The position numbers were made by a program, and so were the translations under genes. A stretch of DNA of 64,000 nucleotides from the IMG/VR virus record IMGVR_UViG_3300017725_000001, positions 1-64,000 of that record. The stretch is one strand, 5' to 3'. The notes under the pieces were generated by a model. That model did not search any database. It worked only from the letters and a program-made list of their open reading frames with translations, and was not told where the DNA came from. Of the stretch, positions 4,729-49,536 are shown one piece after another. Every line of letters starts with the position of its first letter. Within the stretch, counting starts at the first letter, position 1. The DNA comes from a virus.

Positions 4729-5250
4729 CTATGTTTTTCCAGTTACTCTGTGACTTTGAACACTAATATGTTCAAATTTGATATTAAGTTTTTCTGCAAA
4801 CTTATTTAGCACTTCTTTAGCGGACTCAGGTCTGCCACGTTCTCTGCCTTTCATTGTCACCATAACTGTTAGTTTGTTATTTTTATCTAAGAATTTACGA
4901 GCCATATTAGCTTTTGTTTCCAAATCATGGATATCAATGTTTACACCCATTCGTATTTCCTTAATTTCTACAATGCTTTCGCGTTGTTTCTTTTTAGCCA
5001 GCTTTTGTTTTTGCTTTAGCTCATACAAATGTTTATTGAGTGCGATAATTCTGCATACTGGTGGCTGAGCTTTTTCAGCTATTAGTACTAAATCTAACTC
5101 CATTTCTTTTGCTTTTGCTAAGGCTTCCTTTGTAGACATGACCTGACTATCGCCATCTGGAAAGGAAACTCGTATTTCTGCAAATTTAATACGTTCATTT
5201 GCAGTATACAAAGGTTTTGTATCTCTTCTTCTAAAATTCCTATTTTGCAT
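4729..5250 (-). CDS. infC: Translation initiation factor IF-3
   Basis: 173 residues from the ATG at 5250, which has AAGAG before it and overlaps the clpX end by 11 bases; a longer start at 5295 lacks these signs. The N-domain (YTANERIKFAEIRVSFPDG...PPVCRI), a Lys-rich linker (KQKQKLAKKKQRES) and the C-domain (EIKEIRMGVNIDIHDLETK, GRERGRPESAKEVL) are in normal order, so the protein looks full-length. IF-3 prevents 50S joining and proofreads the start codon and initiator tRNA on 30S. A phage copy beside bS21 suggests control of initiation. Confidence 0.92.
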   Translation of the reverse strand: MQNRNFRRRDTKPLYTANERIKFAEIRVSFPDGDSQVMSTKEALAKAKEMELDLVLIAEKAQPPVCRIIALNKHLYELKQKQKLAKKKQRESIVEIKEIRMGVNIDIHDLETKANMARKFLDKNNKLTVMVTMKGRERGRPESAKEVLNKFAEKLNIKFEHISVQSHRVTGKT

Positions 5251-6454
5251 TGGTGCTCTTAATGTAATGGGGTTCTGCGTTTTTAGAAATAACATCTTTT
5301 GTAATAATAATTTTGTTTATACCTTCACTGGACATTTCTGGTAACCTATATTGTAATTCAAGTAATGCACCATCAAGTATCTTACGCAACCCTCTGGCCC
5401 CTATTTCTTCTTTTATTGCTATGTCTGCTACCTCTTCCAATGCTTCCATTTTAAACTCTATTTGTATTTTGTCAAGTAAAAATAATTCTTTAATTTGCTC
5501 TACAATAGCATCTTTTGGTTCTGTTAATATCTTTACCAAGTCTTCTTTGCTTAGATGGGATAATACGTTGGTACTTGCAAACCTACCAATAAATTCTGGT
5601 ATTAATCCATACTTTACCAAGTCTTTGGTTTGTAAGTACTCTGTCCAATTTTCTATCTTATGACCTTCTTCACCATTAAAGCCTATTTTTGATTTACCAA
5701 GTCTATTAGCAACTACTTCTTCTAAACCAACAAATGCACCACCAACAATAAACAATATATTGGTTGTATCAACAATTACTTTTTCTGGATTACTTTGAGG
5801 CTTATTAGGTACTGTTACTTTACTACCTTCTATTAGCTTTAATAAACTTTGCTGAACTCCTTCACCACTTACATCTCTACTTAAACTTACAAAGTCATTA
5901 CGTTTTGCTTTTTTATCTATTTCGTCAACATAAATTATACCACGTTCTGCTCTTTCTACGTTGTAATCTGCCGCTTGAAATAATTTATGTATTAATACTT
6001 CTGCATCTTCTCCTGCATAACCGCTTTCGGTAATAACTGTAGCATCTGTTACAACAAATGGAACATCTAAATGATTGGCTAGTGTTTGTGCCATTAATGT
6101 TTTACCAGTTCCTGTAGGACCTGCAATAAACACATTTCCTTTTTGTAATTTTGTTTTTGTATCTGATGTAATTCTTCTATAATGATTATAAACTGCTACA
6201 CTTAAAGTTTTCTTTGCTTTATCTTGACTTATAACATAATCATCTAAATGCTTGTGTATTTCTCTAGGTGTAGGAAGATTAAATTTCTTTTCTATTGTAT
6301 TTTCTATTTTAATTTCATTGTTCTGTAATATGCCGTGACATAACTCTACACAATCAGAACAAATGTGCATAGCATTTTCACCTGCTAATAATTTTTTTAC
6401 TTGGTTTCTACCTTTTCCGCAAAAATTGCAGATTATATCATTTGGTCTCATCAA
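5240..6454 (-). CDS. clpX: ClpX unfoldase
   Basis: 404 residues. N-terminal zinc-binding domain with Cys9, Cys12, Cys32 and Cys35; Walker A GPTGTGKT at about 112-119; Walker B IIYVDEIDKK; and the sensor/C-terminal GARGLRKI segment. ClpX unfolds tagged proteins and feeds them to ClpP, which the phage also encodes at 9118. An N-terminal domain this complete suggests adaptor recognition is kept. Its start overlaps the upstream gene by 17 bases and its end overlaps infC. Confidence 0.95.
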   Translation of the reverse strand: MMRPNDIICNFCGKGRNQVKKLLAGENAMHICSDCVELCHGILQNNEIKIENTIEKKFNLPTPREIHKHLDDYVISQDKAKKTLSVAVYNHYRRITSDTKTKLQKGNVFIAGPTGTGKTLMAQTLANHLDVPFVVTDATVITESGYAGEDAEVLIHKLFQAADYNVERAERGIIYVDEIDKKAKRNDFVSLSRDVSGEGVQQSLLKLIEGSKVTVPNKPQSNPEKVIVDTTNILFIVGGAFVGLEEVVANRLGKSKIGFNGEEGHKIENWTEYLQTKDLVKYGLIPEFIGRFASTNVLSHLSKEDLVKILTEPKDAIVEQIKELFLLDKIQIEFKMEALEEVADIAIKEEIGARGLRKILDGALLELQYRLPEMSSEGINKIIITKDVISKNAEPHYIKSTNAK

Positions 6455-10864: not shown

Positions 10865-11405
10865 GAATTTCCATAAGTTGAAGGTTAGCTTTCATATATA
10901 GATCTGTGCCATGTACTTTATCCATAGCTTCTAATAGATTTATTTTTTCTTTTATATAAACTTCAGCAAATTTTGGATCATGCTCAACTATTGATTTTGT
11001 GTTGTCAATAAGATCTGCTAGTTTAATCATTTGTGCTTCTTTACTAGCCATACCCAAACGTTTAGCTTCAATAGCCTTACGTATTGCTCTGTTGCCATCT
11101 TCTGGTTTAGTTACATCAGTTAATTCTACAACTAACTTAAAAACTTTCCAACCAAATTCTTCAGCAATTTGCTCTCTGGTTACATTAGTATCTTCAACTG
11201 TATCATGTAAAAGGGCCGCGGCAATCATTTCTTTTGTACCGCCAAATGCCGCAACAATTTCAGAAACGGCAATAGGGTGAACAATATAATCATCACCTGT
11301 GTACTTCCGTTTCTGGTTTACTGCGGCGTGTGCCGCAGTAGAAAATTTAAGTGCTCTATCAATCAATTGCATATCCTCTAGTTTAAGTAAAGTGGGCCTG
11401 TCCAT
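10857..11405 (-). CDS. HD-domain small alarmone hydrolase (Mesh1/SpoT-hydrolase-like)
   Basis: 182 residues made of one RelA/SpoT-type HD domain: AHAA near residue 26, YIVHPIAV with His43, AALLHDTVEDT with His67/Asp68 and the following Glu-Asp, FGWKVFKLVVELTDVTKP, and MIKLADLIDN. The family removes pyrophosphate from (p)ppGpp. There is no synthetase domain. A phage hydrolase would keep the stringent response off during infection. An alternative start at Met12 (11372) has AGAGG close upstream. Confidence 0.8.
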   Translation of the reverse strand: MDRPTLLKLEDMQLIDRALKFSTAAHAAVNQKRKYTGDDYIVHPIAVSEIVAAFGGTKEMIAAALLHDTVEDTNVTREQIAEEFGWKVFKLVVELTDVTKPEDGNRAIRKAIEAKRLGMASKEAQMIKLADLIDNTKSIVEHDPKFAEVYIKEKINLLEAMDKVHGTDLYMKANLQLMEIHD

Positions 11406-11713
11406 CTAACAGTATATCCACCATCTAAAATATTACCTCTTGGAGCATTAAGTGCAGGAGCATTCCAACCTGCCGCTTTAAGAATATCACCTTTTTTAAA
11501 ATGTTTGAAGTCTACTTTAGATATAAAACCCCAAACACTATTTTCTCTAATAATCTTGATGTATTTCTTACCTTCTTTAACTTGAATGTTATCTTCCATT
11601 GAATCAACTACACCTTGACTATAACTACTCATTTCTTTTGTCCCATTTGAAGTAGTCCAATTAATGTAGTCTGTTTTAATTGCTTGGATTAAAGTGTCTA
11701 TTTCTTTTTGCAT
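11378..11713 (-). CDS. Hypothetical conserved phage protein
   Basis: 111 residues: helical N-terminus, then KKYIKIIRENSVWGFISK and GDILKAAGWNAPALNAPRGNI, which looks like a small beta-rich domain. I have seen similar sequences in phages but know no function. It is the first gene after an early promoter at 11746-11774, with AGGAG upstream of the ATG, so it is likely expressed early together with the alarmone hydrolase. Confidence 0.6.
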   Translation of the reverse strand: MQKEIDTLIQAIKTDYINWTTSNGTKEMSSYSQGVVDSMEDNIQVKEGKKYIKIIRENSVWGFISKVDFKHFKKGDILKAAGWNAPALNAPRGNILDGGYTVRWTGPLYLN

Positions 11714-13949: not shown

Positions 13950-14212
13950 TAAACAATCTCCCCATAGTAATTTTTGTTATACCAAATATCTCCATTTGGT
14001 GTCTTAGCTGGACCGTGTACTGCATATTCCATTGGATCAGTATTAAATTTACTTTCCAGAATTTCGTGTGCTCTTTTAGCAGTCTTAAAAGGACCTGCTA
14101 CAACATCACTTGAAATAAGTTCAAATCCATCACCAGGTATATCTCCCCAATTCATTGAACTTACATAAAAACCTTTTTTAACCAAATATGGATTAATTTT
14201 AAAATGTCTCAT
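13949..14212 (-). CDS. Hypothetical protein
   Basis: 87 residues with aromatic-rich short strands (YLVKKGFYVSSMNWGD, DIWYNKNYYGEIV). It overlaps both neighbours by single-base stop/start junctions, so it belongs to the early operon that runs from 14439 through the ligase gene. No recognised domain. Confidence 0.5.
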   Translation of the reverse strand: MRHFKINPYLVKKGFYVSSMNWGDIPGDGFELISSDVVAGPFKTAKRAHEILESKFNTDPMEYAVHGPAKTPNGDIWYNKNYYGEIV

Positions 14213-14439
14213 TATTGTGCCTCCATATAAGTTTCAGTAATATCACCTTTTTCAATTAATTCATCTTGTATTTCTTGAGCAGTATAATCAGCAAATCCGC
14301 TTTCCTGTCTCCAATCAATTTCATCTTCTATATTATGCATTCTCATAACGTCTTTTGTACCGATTCCACCTAAACCTAATTTAAGTTCGTTTAACTCTCC
14401 CCTTAAATCTTCCATTTCCATTTGTTCTACTGTTTTCAT
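14212..14439 (-). CDS. Hypothetical acidic protein, first gene of the ligase operon
   Basis: 75 residues, acidic and helical (QMEMEDLRGELNELKLG). It is the first gene after the early promoter at 14469-14497, with AGGAG before the ATG. Its stop overlaps the next start. Function unknown. Confidence 0.55.
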   Translation of the reverse strand: MKTVEQMEMEDLRGELNELKLGLGGIGTKDVMRMHNIEDEIDWRQESGFADYTAQEIQDELIEKGDITETYMEAQ

Positions 14440-33510: not shown

Positions 33511-34191
33511 TTATAGATTATAAAATTGTTCTAAACGTTCGGCCCATTTAAGTTCCCATTGTTTAAATTCTGTACTATCTGCTTCAAATAATTGAAACTC
33601 ACCTGCTCTACTGCACATAAAAACAGCTATGTTTGATATGTTTGTTCCATACATTTCATTGTGGGCGTTTGCATAGGCCGCTCCTTGTAGGAAATAATCA
33701 TCAATCCATTCACGTTTTTTAGGTTTATTGGTCTGTTTAAAGTCCATGATAGTTTGTTTACCTTTATATACTCCAACTAAATCTGTTGTACCTGCATATA
33801 AATCTTTTGCTACTAAATTAACCTCTGATCCCCACACTTCGCTAATATCAGGTTCCACATTGTCTATTACAACTTGTGCCATACCTTTTGCTTGTTTATG
33901 GACCATATTGTTTCCTGGATTGTATTCTTCATTTTTAAACCATTTTTCTAATATATTATGCATTACAGATCCAACATTAGATGCTTCAGTTACAATACGT
34001 TGTGCTTCAGCATCTCCTACACGTTTTTTCCATCTAGCCAATCCTGCTTTTTTATCTGCTGATTGGGTTGCACTTAAAATAGTGGTTACACTTGGAACAG
34101 GATCGCCCCAAGGATTCTCATATAGACGTTTCCCGTCTACTGAGGTTCTTTTAAATTCTTTATAATCATAAGGGGATTTTATTTTTAACAT
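33511..34191 (-). CDS. PD-(D/E)XK exonuclease (RecB/Cas4-like)
   Basis: 226 residues. The nuclease core is seen in GSVMHNILEKWF, AGTTDLVGVYKGKQ and TIMDFKQTNK, giving the Asp and Asp-x-Lys metal ligands, followed by the QGAAYANAH helix. I choose the ATG at 34191, six bases after the -10 box of its promoter, because the first ATG at 34197 touches the -10. It probably processes DNA ends for recombination or degrades host DNA. Confidence 0.85.
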   Translation of the reverse strand: MLKIKSPYDYKEFKRTSVDGKRLYENPWGDPVPSVTTILSATQSADKKAGLARWKKRVGDAEAQRIVTEASNVGSVMHNILEKWFKNEEYNPGNNMVHKQAKGMAQVVIDNVEPDISEVWGSEVNLVAKDLYAGTTDLVGVYKGKQTIMDFKQTNKPKKREWIDDYFLQGAAYANAHNEMYGTNISNIAVFMCSRAGEFQLFEADSTEFKQWELKWAERLEQFYNL

Positions 34192-34197
34192 ACTCAT

Positions 34198-34226
34198 AGT
34201 ATATGTGCCTTCTATAGAAATGTCAA
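34198..34226 (-). promoter_or_regulatory. Early (sigma70-type) promoter, leaderless output
   Basis: TTGACA 34221-34226, 17 bp, TATACT 34198-34203. Six bases lie between the -10 and the ATG at 34191, so +1 is predicted at that A. Confidence 0.75.
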
Positions 34227-40644: not shown

Positions 40645-40653
40645 GTATTTATC
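40645..40653 (-). promoter_or_regulatory. Late-type promoter GATAAATAC
   Basis: GATAAATAC in the gap between gp41 and the gene at 40364-40612; it marks the boundary between replication genes and the late block. Confidence 0.65.
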
Positions 40654-42053
40654 TAATTATTACTTCTTTTCAGCATACTTCGAAGTTTGTCGTGTCCAGA
40701 TAATGTGTTCTCTACTACACTATTTTCAGCTATACTCTTCTCTTGATGGGTTACTTTGTTCTGTGCTTTAATTTTTTCAAACATAGCACTAGGTTGATTA
40801 GCTACAGATCCTTGCTCTTCTTCTGCTAAATCGCTAATACGAAGCCCAGATACGTCAAATGCTAGGTCTACTTTTTGCCCCACTCCACTACTACTTCTAG
40901 TCTTCATAAACTGTATTTGATATCTGCCTCTTTCACGCATTGCTTGGCTACTAAAAATACCAATAACGTTATCTGCTGTCTGAATTTTACTTAAACCACC
41001 AGCAATATGAGAGTGATCAAATTCTACTTCTTCTACTGCACTTCTGTTTAACTGAGATGCTGTCGCTAGTAATATATCATTTTCTACTGCAAAATTACGC
41101 AATTCTTCTGATACAAACTTGTCTTTAATAAACAGATCACTTGGACTTACTTTGCTCTGTGCTGGCATCATTAAGTCTAAGTAATCAACACATACTCCAT
41201 CAATTTTTATATTGTTTTTTACTTCATACTCTTTAATAAAACTTGTAATAGTGTTAACTGTAATACCATTAGGTAATTGTACAATTTGCAATTTACCCGC
41301 ATCTTTACCTTGCATACGAACTTTTAAATCTACATCATCTGCATTTTTAAATACTTCTCTGGTATTCATTCCTGTTAGCATACTATCTAATCGCATACTA
41401 CATAGTTCTTCACTTAATTCTAAACTAATATAAATTACATTTTGCCCTGCTAGTGCCCAGTTCAATGCCAAATTCTGTAAGAACAAACTTTTACCACCAC
41501 CTGACGGTGCGGCAAATATATTTAATTCTCCTCTGTTAAATCCACCATATAGTTTTTTATCTACTTCAGCCCAACCTGTGCTAATACCACCTCTTTGATT
41601 TCTTATACGTTCAATACGTTCAGCTGGACTTTTCCAATAATCTGTACCCATATGTTTTGCTAAACCTAATTGTACTGCTTCTTTTACCATTCTTTCTACA
41701 GGACCATATTCGCCCTTTTCTAAAAGATCAGCACTTTTTAAAATTGCACTTTCTAATGCTTTATGTCTACAAAATATTTCAAACTCATCTATAAACCATT
41801 TCTTATGTCTATCATCAACATCTTTTAATGGCTGTAGTTCTAAATTTGAGATTGCTTTAATTTGATCTAGTGTAGGCAATGCTTGATATTCTGTTGCATG
41901 ACTTTGTACAAATTCGACGGTTTTACGTAGCTCTCTGTCAAAGAATTCAGGATTTAATATTGCATTTACTCTAACAAATAAATCTTGATCTTGTGACAAG
42001 AATTCTACAAACAATCTTTGTAGATCTACTGAATATTCTTTACCTTCGTTCAT
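40653..42053 (-). CDS. Replicative DNA helicase (T4 gp41, DnaB-type)
   Basis: 466 residues from the ATG at 42053, with AGGAAGG upstream and an ATGA overlap with the primase stop. Walker A APSGGGKS near residue 183, the RecA-fold GVCVDYLDLMMPA Walker B and TASQLNRSA are DnaB-type. The hexamer unwinds DNA at the fork with gp61 primase. Distinct from UvsW at 47116. Confidence 0.93.
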   Translation of the reverse strand: MNEGKEYSVDLQRLFVEFLSQDQDLFVRVNAILNPEFFDRELRKTVEFVQSHATEYQALPTLDQIKAISNLELQPLKDVDDRHKKWFIDEFEIFCRHKALESAILKSADLLEKGEYGPVERMVKEAVQLGLAKHMGTDYWKSPAERIERIRNQRGGISTGWAEVDKKLYGGFNRGELNIFAAPSGGGKSLFLQNLALNWALAGQNVIYISLELSEELCSMRLDSMLTGMNTREVFKNADDVDLKVRMQGKDAGKLQIVQLPNGITVNTITSFIKEYEVKNNIKIDGVCVDYLDLMMPAQSKVSPSDLFIKDKFVSEELRNFAVENDILLATASQLNRSAVEEVEFDHSHIAGGLSKIQTADNVIGIFSSQAMRERGRYQIQFMKTRSSSGVGQKVDLAFDVSGLRISDLAEEEQGSVANQPSAMFEKIKAQNKVTHQEKSIAENSVVENTLSGHDKLRSMLKRSNN

Positions 42054-43060
42054 TTGCAAACCTTCCTCATTAATAGTTCAATTTTTGTTGGATTTTTGTG
42101 CCTACTATTTATAATACTTCTTATTGTATACAATCTTCCGTATTTTGTCAAGGCATCACTTGCATCTTTACAATCTTTCCATTCTGGAAAGGATACACTG
42201 AAACCATGTTTTATAGCAGACTTACACATCATTTTACCAGGTTCATCTAAATCTGGTAATACTATAATTTCTTTATCAAGGCTTTTTAATATCTCAGCCT
42301 GTTCTTCGTTTATATTATTTCTACCTGTAGCACAACCATCTGTTACTATAGCATCAAGTTGACCTTCTGTAACTATAACCATTTCTCTATTTCTTGTTTG
42401 CCTATCAAGCCCATATACAAAATCTGCTTTAGGTTGTTGATTATAATATTTTGCTACTTCCTTAGGTGGAGTTCCTATCCATCTAGCAGTATAGCCTACT
42501 ATATCATTCTTATACGTAAATGGTATAATAAATCTTCTGTTCATTCTACCAAATTGTTTACTAGGGCTATACATAAGTCTAGAGTCAGTTACATCAAATC
42601 CTCTACTAGTTAAATATGATACTGCATCAATCCAATTTTGATCAGGATCTTTAAATTCCATAAACGGCTTTGCACCCTCTGGTAAATCTTTTTTATCCCA
42701 ACCAATATTTAATTGCTTTGGTTTTTCTTTTTTAATTAATAACGTAGCAACATCTTGCTCACGTAATAACTCTAGTTGAATACGATGTATATCGTTTTCA
42801 TCTGCACCTAATATAGTTAATAATTTTTTTAATTTGTTTGTTATTCTATTATGTTGTGTATACCCTGTTTTATAATTGCAATTAAAACAATTATATTGAA
42901 AATGATCTTCTTCAAAATAAAAACCACCTCTGCCTTTTGTATCTGGCCTGCTTTCACCGTTTCTTACACACATAGGACAATTACCAGAAACCCACCCATT
43001 GGGGTTACTTCGCCAGTTAGTAGGTATCAGAGTTCGAACGTAGTCATTCATTAAAGTCAT
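42050..43060 (-). CDS. DNA primase (T4 gp61)
   Basis: 336 residues. N-terminal zinc ribbon (GNCPMCVRNGE and YNCFNCNYKTG), a TOPRIM-like part (MVIVTEGQLDAIVT, IIVLPDLDEPGK with acidic residues) and a helical end. It makes RNA primers on the lagging strand with gp41. Its ATG at 43060 is six bases after the -10 of a TTGACA promoter, so its mRNA may be leaderless. Confidence 0.92.
   Translation of the reverse strand: MTLMNDYVRTLIPTNWRSNPNGWVSGNCPMCVRNGESRPDTKGRGGFYFEEDHFQYNCFNCNYKTGYTQHNRITNKLKKLLTILGADENDIHRIQLELLREQDVATLLIKKEKPKQLNIGWDKKDLPEGAKPFMEFKDPDQNWIDAVSYLTSRGFDVTDSRLMYSPSKQFGRMNRRFIIPFTYKNDIVGYTARWIGTPPKEVAKYYNQQPKADFVYGLDRQTRNREMVIVTEGQLDAIVTDGCATGRNNINEEQAEILKSLDKEIIVLPDLDEPGKMMCKSAIKHGFSVSFPEWKDCKDASDALTKYGRLYTIRSIINSRHKNPTKIELLMRKVCK
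42123..42151 (-). promoter_or_regulatory. Internal sigma70-type promoter for gp41
   Basis: TTGACA 42146-42151, 17 bp, TACAAT 42123-42128 inside the primase gene, about 65 bases before the gp41 ATG. Confidence 0.45.
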
Positions 43061-43066
43061 AAGTGT

Positions 43067-43095
43067 ATATTACACTCTAATTACGACTTTGTCAA
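43067..43095 (-). promoter_or_regulatory. Early (sigma70-type) promoter, leaderless output
   Basis: TTGACA 43090-43095, 17 bp, TAATAT 43067-43072, then ACACTT and the primase ATG at 43060. The +1 is predicted at the A of ATG. Confidence 0.75.
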
Positions 43096-43903
43096 GTGTT
43101 CCTGCTGATTGAGTAAATTTTGCTCTTAGATATTTAACGTTTGTTCGAAAAGTCCAAGGATCTATACCTGTATGGTTTAAATATGGAAAATATGTTTGAG
43201 TATTTGTACCAAGTGTGATATCAAACCAATCTGGTTCTGTAGGGTTATCACTTAAAGTACCTTGCATATAAAAATTACCAGTATAACCTGTACCATATAC
43301 TCCTATTGTTACTAATCCATTTGGTTTATCATAATAACCTGTTGCTTTTAATGAACTACTGTAATAGAATGTTTGATTGTTTACTGTTTGTTGTTGAAAG
43401 TTCTCATCTGCTTGTGTAGTAAGTGGTAATGCGTCACCTTCTTCACTTACATCTACAGTAAAGTTAGGTCTCATATTTAAATCACAAAATAATGGAACTG
43501 TTAGTCCTGTATCCGTAGTATAACTAAACACTAAATCATAATGTCCTTGTGAAAATCTTCCACTTTCACCTACTGTTATTATTACTTTAATACCACCTTG
43601 TATATAATCTGTGATAATTGCTTTCTTACTTATTGTAGTTGACCTATCGTCTCTATCAATAAAAGAACAATATACTGTTGTACCTTGTAACATTACTGGT
43701 TTTCTATCTTGATTTTTAATAAAAAAGAAAAACTCATTATCAAATCCACGAAACAGTTTTAAGAATCTATAATTCATAGGACTATTAACTGCGGTACCTT
43801 TTGCACCTGCGTATTTTGCTTGTCCTGCTGGTGTTCCGTGATCTTCTAATGTATAAAGATCGCCTTCTTGATTAACTTGGTATGTAGTTCCGTAATTTGA
43901 CAT
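43070..43903 (-). CDS. Virion structural protein
   Basis: 277 residues, beta-rich (YRFLKLFRGFDNEFFFFIK, VFSYTTDTGLTVPLFCDL, NGLVTIGVYGTGYTGNFYMQ) with an IgG-like flavour, probably a tail or baseplate part. It has a late promoter at 43920-43928 and its 3' end contains the primase promoter. Confidence 0.6.
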   Translation of the reverse strand: MSNYGTTYQVNQEGDLYTLEDHGTPAGQAKYAGAKGTAVNSPMNYRFLKLFRGFDNEFFFFIKNQDRKPVMLQGTTVYCSFIDRDDRSTTISKKAIITDYIQGGIKVIITVGESGRFSQGHYDLVFSYTTDTGLTVPLFCDLNMRPNFTVDVSEEGDALPLTTQADENFQQQTVNNQTFYYSSSLKATGYYDKPNGLVTIGVYGTGYTGNFYMQGTLSDNPTEPDWFDITLGTNTQTYFPYLNHTGIDPWTFRTNVKYLRAKFTQSAGTLDKVVIRV

Positions 43904-43964: not shown

Positions 43965-44336
43965 ATGCAAACCAAACATCAGAAACTCTTAGAGCAATAT
44001 CCATTCTTAACCGTCATTGAGTATGCCAACAACGAATACCTGGGTATAATGCAGAATATAGATAGTCACGTGGCTAGTATGTACATCTACGATCGTCTTA
44101 GCGAAGAGTATGAAAAAATGAAATTTTTAGAATTAGGTGAAGAATGGTGGTGGGAAACTAATAGAAAACTTCCAATAAACATTGCATTACTTAATAGATG
44201 GAACTTTGCCCATTGTGTACAAAGTTTTAATGTTAAACAAATGGAAGTAATTGCTGGGCCCGAAGTTAGATTAAGTAATAGTATTACTAAACGTATAAAA
44301 CGTAGAAGTATTAATCTTGTAAAGAAAGGCCCGTAG
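43965..44336 (+). CDS. Hypothetical protein, the only plus-strand gene
   Basis: 123 residues: acidic, helical first half (HQKLLEQYPFLTVIEYAN, EYEKMKFLELGEEWWWET), then VLRLSN-like basic end (SITKRIKRRSINLVKKG). Codon use and length suit a real gene and it has its own late box. It converges on, and overlaps by 26 bases, the gene at 44311-44895. Function unknown. Confidence 0.65.
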   Translation: MQTKHQKLLEQYPFLTVIEYANNEYLGIMQNIDSHVASMYIYDRLSEEYEKMKFLELGEEWWWETNRKLPINIALLNRWNFAHCVQSFNVKQMEVIAGPEVRLSNSITKRIKRRSINLVKKGP

Positions 44337-45645: not shown

Positions 45646-45971
45646 TAATGATTCCTTTTGCCATCAAATACACAAACAAAATATAAACCTTGTGGTCCAC
45701 ATTTGACTCTATGATGCACTCCATCTTCAATTAACACAACATCACCAGCTTGTACAAACATCTCTTTATCATCTAGCCACATAGTACCAGCTCCTTTAAC
45801 AAAGTAATATACTTCTTCTTGTCCACTATGGTTATGCCCACGTGTTGACTTATATGGGTGTAATTCTGTACTGCTTAATACTAGGTTGTTTAATAACTTG
45901 TTATCTTTTAATATGTAAGTTTCGTTATCTTTAATAACTTCTCCACCAATATCCATTATATTGTATTTCAT
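45645..45971 (-). CDS. Cupin-domain protein
   Basis: 108 residues. The cupin metal motif is GHNHSGQEEVYYFVKGAG with two His and Glu, and motif 2 is GDVVLIEDGVHHRV with the distal His. Cupins bind a metal and have many functions; the substrate cannot be told. It overlaps both neighbours. Confidence 0.75.
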   Translation of the reverse strand: MKYNIMDIGGEVIKDNETYILKDNKLLNNLVLSSTELHPYKSTRGHNHSGQEEVYYFVKGAGTMWLDDKEMFVQAGDVVLIEDGVHHRVKCGPQGLYFVCVFDGKRNH

Positions 45972-46426
45972 TTTAATAACTCTTTTATTTCTTTTTTAGT
46001 CATTCCGTATTCCTCAAATAACTCAATAAAGTCTTCTTTAGTTTTATTGCTTATAAAAATATCAACTTCGTCATCATTTAATTGACTGTAGTTTTTAACT
46101 ACCCACTCTTGTATCTTATTTTTCTTACCTCGTTTACCCGGTGCTATCCAAGGATGAAATGTAGGTTTGCCAAGTCCTACTAATTGTAATAGTTTAAACT
46201 GTAATTCAGGATGTTGTCGTAATTTATTAAAATGAACATTGACTACTTCATTAGTCCATTCTAAGTAATGCTCTGTAAAGTTTTTATCACCTGCACTACT
46301 TGTATATCTCATTAACGGCCAAAGACTTAATTTACCTTTTTCTTCATCTGTAAGACTATTGTACCATTTTCTATCTTTGGTATCAATTGCTCTCATTTCA
46401 CTCTTAATATCTAGCTTACTCATCAT
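45968..46426 (-). CDS. Hypothetical conserved marine T4-like protein
   Basis: 152 residues, helical: LTDEEKGKLSLWPLMRYTSS, EHYLEWTNEVVNVHFNKL, GLGKPTFHPWIAPGKRGKK. I recall this pattern in cyanophage genomes but no function. Overlaps the downstream cupin gene by four bases and the upstream gene by 11. Confidence 0.6.
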   Translation of the reverse strand: MMSKLDIKSEMRAIDTKDRKWYNSLTDEEKGKLSLWPLMRYTSSAGDKNFTEHYLEWTNEVVNVHFNKLRQHPELQFKLLQLVGLGKPTFHPWIAPGKRGKKNKIQEWVVKNYSQLNDDEVDIFISNKTKEDFIELFEEYGMTKKEIKELLK

Positions 46427-47115: not shown

Positions 47116-48567
47116 TTAAAGCCAATTTACTTTTTCAATAGTAAATGGATAATTTGCTTCTTTGTAAAATTTCTTACGTTCTGTAAGATGTCTTTTACTA
47201 AATTTAGCTGAACTTGTAATATCCCATATCTGCACATTATCTTTGTCTTCTGCTTTTCTAATACCACGTCCAATACTTTGTATTACTCTAACAAAGCTCT
47301 TTCCTGGTTCTATTAAAACAAGATTAAATATACGTGGAATATTAATACCTACTGCCGCAACACCATATGTTGCTACAACAATTTGATTAGTTCCCTCATT
47401 AATGTCGTCATAATGATCTTTACGTGTAGTAGTTTTCATCTCACCACTAACAAAGTTAGCTTCAGCTATATTATCGCATATTAGCTGACCTGCTTTGATT
47501 CTATCTACTAATACAAGAGTATTACCAGAAGCAGATACTTTTTTAATTAAACCACTTATATACTTCATACGTGAAGCATTAGTAGTTAGGTAAGTTAGTT
47601 CGCTTTGATAATTGTTGTATTCTGATACTTCTTTTAATTGCACTACATTAACATGACATTGACTTAGAACTTCTTTTTCTTGTAGTTCACTTGCCGCCAG
47701 TTTGTGTGTAACTTCTCCTAAACAAGCCTGTAAACTAACCTTCTCATGATCAGCTTTTGGTATAGTGCCTGTTAAACCCCATCTTAGTGGAATGTTTGAA
47801 AAATCTTTTGTTAGTAATTCTTTTAATACTTCTGCTTTTGCTTGATGTACTTCGTCAACTATTACACATACTACATCTTCTGCAAAATCTACTAAACTTA
47901 AATCTGATTCTCCTTCTTTAAATCTTTTTCTTATACTGTTTAAACTCTGCCAAGTACAAATAGTATGGGTGTGTCCTAATTCTTTTTTGTCGCCATAATA
48001 AACGCCAACATCTAATCCTAAATTTGCATAATCAGCATATGTTTGTGTAACTAAATCTTTATTAGGTACAATAACAATGCTCCTTCCATACTTTTCTACT
48101 TTGTTGCTTAATGCCGCGGTTATTAACGTCTTACCGGCACCTGTAGCTATCTCCTGTAGACAATGTGGTGTTGCTAGATACTTGTTAATAATTTCTACTT
48201 GATAGTCTCTTAAAATTACAGGCTCGCCTGCAACAACATGACCTTCTGGCCACACTTTGTTTTCAAATGTGTTTTCATCTACAGGATCAAATTGAAAGTC
48301 ATATTTAAAACGTAAGTCATTTAGATCTATTTCATAACCCTGTCCCATAATAATAGGCAATACTTTATCTAATAGGTTAGTATACGTAATTCCACCTATA
48401 GTGAAATAAGACGTACATCCATCCCATCTACCTAGCTTAAAAGCTGGTACGTGATATGCATAAGGAAGAAAAAACTTTAATTCTTTTTCACACTTTCTAC
48501 GTGTGTCTATATCTAAGCCTTCTACTTTGCAATTCACTTCATCTTTCAGAGTTATCTTACATTTCAT
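47116..48567 (-). CDS. uvsW: UvsW-type RNA-DNA helicase
   Basis: 483 residues, superfamily 2. Walker A ATGAGKT near 141-147, DEVHQ Walker B, TGTIP, VVATYGVAAVGIN and QSIGRGIRK motif VI are all present. In T4 UvsW shuts down origin-dependent initiation, unwinds R-loops and moves branches. The ATG at 48567 is six bases after the -10 of its promoter, implying a leaderless mRNA. Confidence 0.93.
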   Translation of the reverse strand: MKCKITLKDEVNCKVEGLDIDTRRKCEKELKFFLPYAYHVPAFKLGRWDGCTSYFTIGGITYTNLLDKVLPIIMGQGYEIDLNDLRFKYDFQFDPVDENTFENKVWPEGHVVAGEPVILRDYQVEIINKYLATPHCLQEIATGAGKTLITAALSNKVEKYGRSIVIVPNKDLVTQTYADYANLGLDVGVYYGDKKELGHTHTICTWQSLNSIRKRFKEGESDLSLVDFAEDVVCVIVDEVHQAKAEVLKELLTKDFSNIPLRWGLTGTIPKADHEKVSLQACLGEVTHKLAASELQEKEVLSQCHVNVVQLKEVSEYNNYQSELTYLTTNASRMKYISGLIKKVSASGNTLVLVDRIKAGQLICDNIAEANFVSGEMKTTTRKDHYDDINEGTNQIVVATYGVAAVGINIPRIFNLVLIEPGKSFVRVIQSIGRGIRKAEDKDNVQIWDITSSAKFSKRHLTERKKFYKEANYPFTIEKVNWL

Positions 48568-48573
48568 ATTTAT

Positions 48574-48602
48574 ATATTACAGTACTTATGTTGAATTGTC
48601 AA
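48574..48602 (-). promoter_or_regulatory. Early (sigma70-type) promoter, leaderless output
   Basis: TTGACA 48597-48602, 17 bp, TAATAT 48574-48579, then ATAAAT and the uvsW ATG; +1 predicted at that A. Confidence 0.75.
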
Positions 48603-48672: not shown

Positions 48673-49536
48673 TTAAGAAACAGTTCGCCTCATACAAGTA
48701 ACTTCAGCGGTTCTTTTCCACTTGTCACCCATAGACTTTTTAAGATCTGCAAGTTTGGTAACCATTCTCAAACTTATTTCTCTCATCTTATCTTTGTTAT
48801 CGATCATGAAATTCATTACATCATCTTTTTCAGCTTCGCTGAACATATACTCGTTAAGCATACCGTCTTTAACTATTTGCTTACATCTAAGAACTTTCTC
48901 CCTAGTTGTATCCATAGTAAGATCTAAGTAATGACATCTTGACATTATAGCATCAAGGTGATCTTTAATTTTACCTCTTACATTATCAAACTTAAGGTTA
49001 GTGATGAATATAACTGAACCATTAAATTCAAATGTATCAGGTATACCTTCACGTCTTAATAGAGCTGAATCTGTATTCCAACATAGCTTTCTTTTCTTAC
49101 TAGAATCCAAAGCCGCTTTCAACAAGTTCAAACTAGTTTCATCATATAGTACTGTATCACAGTCATCAAGTACTAATACGTTTGATTTGTCTGCATTATT
49201 GTAAAGAACTTTGTACAAACCTATTGCACTTGAAGCACCCTTTACAGTTTCAAATTTTGCTTTATTACCACCTAGTACATCAAACAATGAATTCTTTTCT
49301 AGAACTTGTTCAACACCAAATGATTTACCTACGCCTGGAGGGCCTGTTACTACCATACCTCTAACAACACCATCTATTGAAGCTTGTGTCATATCATCAA
49401 GTATAGAGAACCTTTCTCTCATACGTTCTATGATTTGCTCATCAGTCTCGTTAGGATTGTCTTTTACTTTAGTAGGAAGAACTTCAACGATTGTCTCGCC
49501 TTTTTTGTTTTTTCTTTGTCTTTTTAATTGTGCCAT
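48673..49536 (-). CDS. AAA-family ATPase
   Basis: 287 residues. Walker A VTGPPGVGKSFG, Walker B VLVLDDCDTVL, a sensor-1 VIFITNLKFDN and an arginine-rich MSRC region. Similar single-domain ATPases are conserved in marine T4-like phages without assigned function. It is a one-gene unit, with its own early promoter and terminator, so it is likely important early in infection. Confidence 0.75.
   Translation of the reverse strand: MAQLKRQRKNKKGETIVEVLPTKVKDNPNETDEQIIERMRERFSILDDMTQASIDGVVRGMVVTGPPGVGKSFGVEQVLEKNSLFDVLGGNKAKFETVKGASSAIGLYKVLYNNADKSNVLVLDDCDTVLYDETSLNLLKAALDSSKKRKLCWNTDSALLRREGIPDTFEFNGSVIFITNLKFDNVRGKIKDHLDAIMSRCHYLDLTMDTTREKVLRCKQIVKDGMLNEYMFSEAEKDDVMNFMIDNKDKMREISLRMVTKLADLKKSMGDKWKRTAEVTCMRRTVS

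Follow-up and report, generated by a model that had tools for sequence, protein, structure and literature searches.

To our knowledge, the leaderless mRNAs described in Gram-negative phages mostly concern individual genes, with lambda cI as the classical example. The cI message is transcribed from a host σ70 promoter, carries the AUG at its 5′ end and lacks a Shine-Dalgarno (SD) sequence. Recognition of the 5′-terminal AUG by 70S ribosomes is the known mode for leaderless mRNAs. In contrast to what is predicted below for a marine phage, the replication genes of phage T4 are expressed from leadered, SD-bearing messages. Translation of such leaderless mRNAs by 70S ribosomes and their sensitivity to IF3 have been described (review PMC9031893). 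In the alphaproteobacterium Sinorhizobium meliloti, 171 leaderless transcripts were mapped, all of them AUG-first (PMC3616915).

The DNA analyzed here (the window) comprises 64,000 of the 124,177 bases available for a marine phage (IMG/VR virus record IMGVR_UViG_3300017725_000001). The phage carries a T4-like replication gene set, and its late genes have ATAAATAC boxes as in T4 late promoters. Judged by primase, UvsW and exonuclease, the closest cultured phages are jumbo phages of the RaK2/121Q/GAP32/PA5oct type (approx. 30–56% protein identity), which share the gene order structural gene, primase, helicase. We predict with high confidence that the primase mRNA is leaderless and belongs to a small set of leaderless DNA replication genes. 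As in lambda cI and the alphaproteobacterial transcripts, its 5′ end would coincide with the first base of the AUG. Whereas cI represents one gene, the repressor of a temperate phage, the predicted set consists of four replication, recombination and nucleotide genes in a large marine group. The S. meliloti transcripts, in turn, come from host genes and were mapped by RNA-seq, whereas the leaderless messages considered here belong to phage genes and are predicted only.

On the minus strand, the region upstream of the primase gene reads CTTGACA AAGTCGTAATTAGAGTG TAATAT ACACTT ATG (43095–43058) with a spacer of 17 bases. It thus contains TTGACA, a spacer within the range of 16–18 bases and a TATAAT-like hexamer as expected for a σ70 promoter. 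The −35 element matches the consensus perfectly, the −10 element at four of six positions only. T−12, A−11 and T−7 of this −10 element are retained among primase relatives; two alternative −10 elements, TGTAAT (15-base spacer) and TATACA (20-base spacer), are not and were rejected. Bacterial transcription usually starts seven bases past the −10 element. As counting seven bases leads to the first base of the primase start codon, the 5′ end is predicted to fall there. An AGGAG-like or SD tract is absent 5′ of this ATG but present at most other genes of the window. The first-pass annotation had reported this promoter arrangement, the absence of a ribosome binding site and the same geometry at uvsW and the exonuclease gene. 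The first two points were confirmed, and at uvsW the geometry recurs exactly. At the exonuclease gene the claim holds for the second in-frame ATG (34191) and fails for the first (34197), which abuts the −10 element. Since the proteins of relatives start with M-L-K-I at the second ATG, this position is favored, and the first ATG is probably unused.

Table 1. Positions of the genes and predicted expression signals discussed in the text (window coordinates).
Feature	Position	Strand	Remarks
Translation initiation factor IF-3	4729–5295	−	N and C domains both present
RecB-like PD-(D/E)XK exonuclease ORF	33511–34197	−	predicted start 34191
Exonuclease, predicted leaderless promoter and ATG	34189–34226	−	TTGACA-17-TATACT-6-ATG; predicted start 34191
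DnaB-like replicative helicase	40653–42059	−	3′ of primase; SD precedes ATG at 42053
Primase ORF	42050–43060	−	DNA primase, 336 aa; matches to PHROG 47 DNA primase and Toprim_2
Primase ATG, predicted transcription start	43058–43060	−	inferred from geometry
Primase discriminator ACACTT	43061–43066	−	final base is the −1 pyrimidine
Primase promoter, −10 element TAATAT	43067–43072	−	TAA doubles as stop codon of the upstream gene
Primase promoter, −35 element TTGACA	43090–43095	−	within the 3′-terminal codons of the structural gene 5′ of primase; retained in all 21 distinct relatives
Virion structural gene 5′ of primase	43070–43903	−	own SD and ATAAATAC late-promoter-like box
UvsW-like helicase	47116–48567	−	483 aa
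uvsW, predicted leaderless promoter and ATG	48565–48602	−	TTGACA-17-TAATAT-6-ATG

A fourth site of the same record precedes a deoxynucleoside monophosphate (dNMP) kinase gene located 3 kb past the window. Further cases, each occurring once in related records, include a DNA-polymerase-like fragment (G002), a kinase-like gene (G007) and a gene of 152 aa (G012) with homology to window positions 45968–46426. A terminase-like ORF (G004) and a radical-SAM-like ORF (G001) were left out of the set, membership being reserved for genes with checked orthologues. The predicted leaderless set comprises a small number of genes and is likely linked with DNA replication.

For comparison, relatives of the four genes were gathered from IMG/VR (primase, 55 loci; uvsW, 80; exonuclease, 60; dNMP kinase, 80). 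Exactly six bases separate the −10 element from the ATG in 104 of 122 distinct upstream sequences, and seven bases in four. Six-base spacing was found in 21/21 primase, 30/31 exonuclease, 30/34 uvsW and 23/36 dNMP kinase sequences; seven bases occurred in 2/34 uvsW and 2/36 dNMP kinase sequences. The spacing is maintained despite divergence of the spacers, the discriminators and even the N-termini of the proteins. Relatives of the exonuclease and the primase gain or lose N-terminal codons, and the ATG stays six bases past the −10 element. In the marine relatives, ATG is the start codon at the leaderless position, and no SD was found upstream of the leaderless starts at the window genes or in the relatives inspected. 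Collapsing the collection to sites less than 70% identical left 42 sites (uvsW 19, dNMP kinase 11, exonuclease 9, primase 3). Numbered from the A as +1, the most conserved blocks across them are −35 to −30 and −12 to −7, which are the textbook σ70 positions, and the spacer center is near random. The −35 and −10 boxes belonged to the pattern by which these sites had been selected, position −1 did not. The base at −1 is T or C in all 42 divergent sites, as compared to 40% at the SD-bearing genes of these genomes. Bacterial RNA polymerase favors a pyrimidine at −1 and a purine at +1. The near-invariant spacing in four unrelated genes, the co-moving start codon and the −1 pyrimidine/+1 A step strongly support the prediction of a leaderless primase mRNA, which had been put forward from the single sequence.

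Several relatives deviate from this arrangement. In uvsW of L074, L075, L079, L085 and L110, the −10 element is followed by 23–26 bases containing AAAGGAT, and a comparable stretch with CGGAGC follows the −10 element of the dNMP kinase gene in the L329/L330 group. A purine-rich tract was found instead at the exonuclease gene of L185/L186. Eight dNMP kinase sequences from another phage group lack the promoter and carry a GAGG tract directly 5′ of the ATG, and a single sequence (L290) exhibits neither the promoter geometry nor an SD-like tract. With SD-like tracts judged by eye, each gene thus appears to carry either the leaderless geometry or, one exception aside, an SD-like tract. An SD-containing leader is present in two upstream variants each of uvsW and the dNMP kinase gene, which indicates that leaderlessness is not obligatory. 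L079 belongs to record G004, whose primase, exonuclease and kinase genes retain the geometry. Therefore, the switch occurs gene by gene. Such natural exchanges of a single gene to an SD leader in otherwise leaderless genomes are ready-made comparisons.

At most primase loci the −35 element and the spacer also code for the C-terminus of the upstream protein; together with the TAA of the −10 element they read LDKVVIRV followed by the stop codon. Part of the −35 and spacer conservation at primase could therefore be due to coding. The Asp codon within the −35 element is GAC in the overlapping relatives, and GAT outnumbers GAC by 245 to 69 (3.5-fold) in the genes counted. The upstream frame of L030 and L031 stops 42 bases short of the primase ATG, leaving the retained promoter in non-coding DNA; here, where the promoter has moved out, the coding copy of the Asp codon is GAT. 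By reading, TTGACA directly follows the upstream stop codon in L042. Alternatively, primase might be mainly translated from a longer read-through message of the upstream structural gene, on which ribosomes terminating at the TAA nine bases 5′ of the primase ATG would re-initiate (translational coupling), with the promoter-like sequence playing a minor role. The upstream ORF indeed ends inside the −10 box in most relatives, the structural gene has a late-promoter-like box and an SD, and SD-less translational coupling is known in general. However, the promoter is retained in L030 and L031 despite the distant upstream stop, uvsW and dNMP kinase share the geometry without an adjoining upstream stop, and some uvsW genes sit directly behind a terminator-like hairpin. 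In the uvsW relatives L099–L103 a hairpin followed by a T-run abuts the −35 element, so that read-through is unlikely to supply a leader. Moreover, the exact six-base spacing and the −1 pyrimidine would be meaningless for coupling. We regard read-through with re-initiation as very unlikely to be the main source of primase.

A further alternative retains the promoter and places the start a few bases off the A, which would result in a leader of 1–5 bases or in a transcript lacking the ATG. Such a message would be SD-less and not strictly leaderless, and translation might alternatively begin further inside the ORF, for example at the ATG that forms codon 4 of primase. The start selected by RNA polymerase can vary by one or two bases, four of the distinct upstream sequences have seven bases instead of six, and codon 4 of primase is indeed an ATG. 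On the other hand, the mode is exactly six, the pyrimidine-A step is invariant and the codon 4 ATG is not retained in relatives, whose proteins begin with, e.g., MSLITNY or MIVLDFV. Codon 4 was therefore rejected as the primase start, and both an offset transcription start and internal initiation are considered very unlikely.

That AT-rich DNA produced promoter-like strings beside ATGs by chance is a negligible explanation already refuted by conservation: although the sequence has 33% GC and the −10 pattern is loose, TTGAC-N18-TANNNT-N6-ATG occurs three times in the window (primase, uvsW and exonuclease) as compared to 0.08 expected, with at least three matches in 0 of 100 shuffles, matches in 16 related records number 58 versus 1 for a reversed-pattern control, and the geometry is conserved in four gene families. 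The earlier statement that coincidence is unlikely is consistent with these counts. Distances between the −10 element and the first ATG of ORFs of at least 60 aa, taken from seven long records, displayed a spike at six bases (27 sites), flanked by two sites at five and one at seven, the script having picked the in-frame ATG closest to six bases, which matters for the exonuclease. A separate broad hump was observed at approx. 25–36 bases. Spike and hump are as expected from two message classes, leaderless and leadered.

Cultured phages differ from the marine group in this respect. In 121Q, GAP32, RaK2, BF, K64-1, Munch, PHA46, Vibrio 2.275, Atu_ph07 and Phosso, no leaderless site was found in any of the 15 regions inspected 5′ of primase, uvsW or exonuclease genes. 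Most of these regions carry an SD-like tract; the uvsW start of K64-1 was not settled. Cultured relatives were rejected as general users of the geometry, their pattern matches being only about twofold above the reversed control (26 versus 12). The primase of PA5oct is the only case among them. It has the perfect sequence TTGACA-17-TATAAT-6-GTG without an SD (MK797984.1 145855–145892); the GTG that would fall at +1 is located six bases downstream of the annotated GTG start. Three of the four pattern sites in PA5oct do not meet an annotated start. GTG is a poor leaderless start in E. coli (noted in PMC3616915), and the PA5oct primase is therefore an uncertain case.

The first-pass annotation had also pointed to the IF-3 of the phage in view of the IF-3 sensitivity of leaderless mRNAs. 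The phage does encode this factor, which aligns with Thermus IF3 and has a C-terminus approx. 10 residues shorter. Leaderless translation is inhibited by excess IF3 and sometimes helped by low levels (review PMC9031893). As evidence for leaderless messages, however, the gene failed. Of 11 cultured jumbo phages surveyed (RaK2-like and rhizobial), 10 encode IF-3, and it is the IF-3-bearing phages whose 15 upstream regions lack the site, while PA5oct shows the reverse, having the primase geometry without IF-3. Among the marine records, which are fragments, 9 of 16 contain IF-3. Neither presence nor absence of the factor tracks the geometry, and a specific link between IF-3 and the leaderless genes is not supported.

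An alphaproteobacterial-type permuted tmRNA was found in 7 of 16 marine records, including G009, whose primase is identical to that of the window. This suggests an alphaproteobacterial host, and in view of the leaderless transcripts of S. meliloti such a host would be expected to translate leaderless mRNAs. The tmRNA of G001 is located at positions 162260–162602 (L226:2260–2602) and encodes the tag AEDNFAIAA; six other related records also carry one.

In the mechanism we propose, primase would have its own host σ70-type promoter, from which transcription initiates at the first base of the start codon. The resulting mRNA would begin with AUG and have neither a 5′UTR nor an SD, and the 5′-terminal AUG would be recognized directly, most likely by 70S ribosomes. 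The helicase gene is the probable second cistron of this message and would use its own SD. The same architecture would drive uvsW, the RecB-like exonuclease gene and the dNMP kinase gene, so that leaderless replication, recombination and nucleotide genes would presumably be expressed in addition to two other classes, ordinary early genes whose leaders measure roughly 20–30 nt and late genes with ATAAATAC boxes and SDs. A second primase message may arise at late stages of infection if transcripts of the upstream structural gene read through.

A broader reading would be a widespread leaderless regulon of marine jumbo phages, in which replication genes are translated via a separate SD-independent 70S route and tuned up or down as a class during infection, for instance when phage IF-3 or an altered supply of free 70S ribosomes favors initiation at the SD-led late genes. 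We consider such a regulon unlikely. This kind of message is already known, but its conserved use for a phage replication gene set was not found in the literature searched, mostly openly accessible papers, and no report of such a set in phages turned up there. If the prediction is correct, essential replication genes with the start codon on the transcription start represent a natural, repeated test of abandoning the SD route. Gene prediction programs relying on an SD may assign such starts incorrectly, as exemplified by the first ATG of the exonuclease ORF.

Three additional sequence features were observed in the window. A palindrome, AGTGTA-ATA-TACACT (43062–43076), spans the −10 element and the discriminator of primase. 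A looser GTGTA/TACAC version exists in several relatives and is absent in others; the palindrome could be an operator or a product of chance. Late-promoter-like boxes, ATAAATAC and CTAAATAC, lie in opposite orientations between positions 43903 and 43965, where they separate the structural gene on the minus strand from a 123-aa ORF on the plus strand (43965–44336). Finally, a near-identical promoter-like repeat block around TTTATACCAAGATGTCTTATTATATATGTATAG precedes the genes at 11378–11713, 14212–14439 and 48673–49536, which have leaders and SDs.
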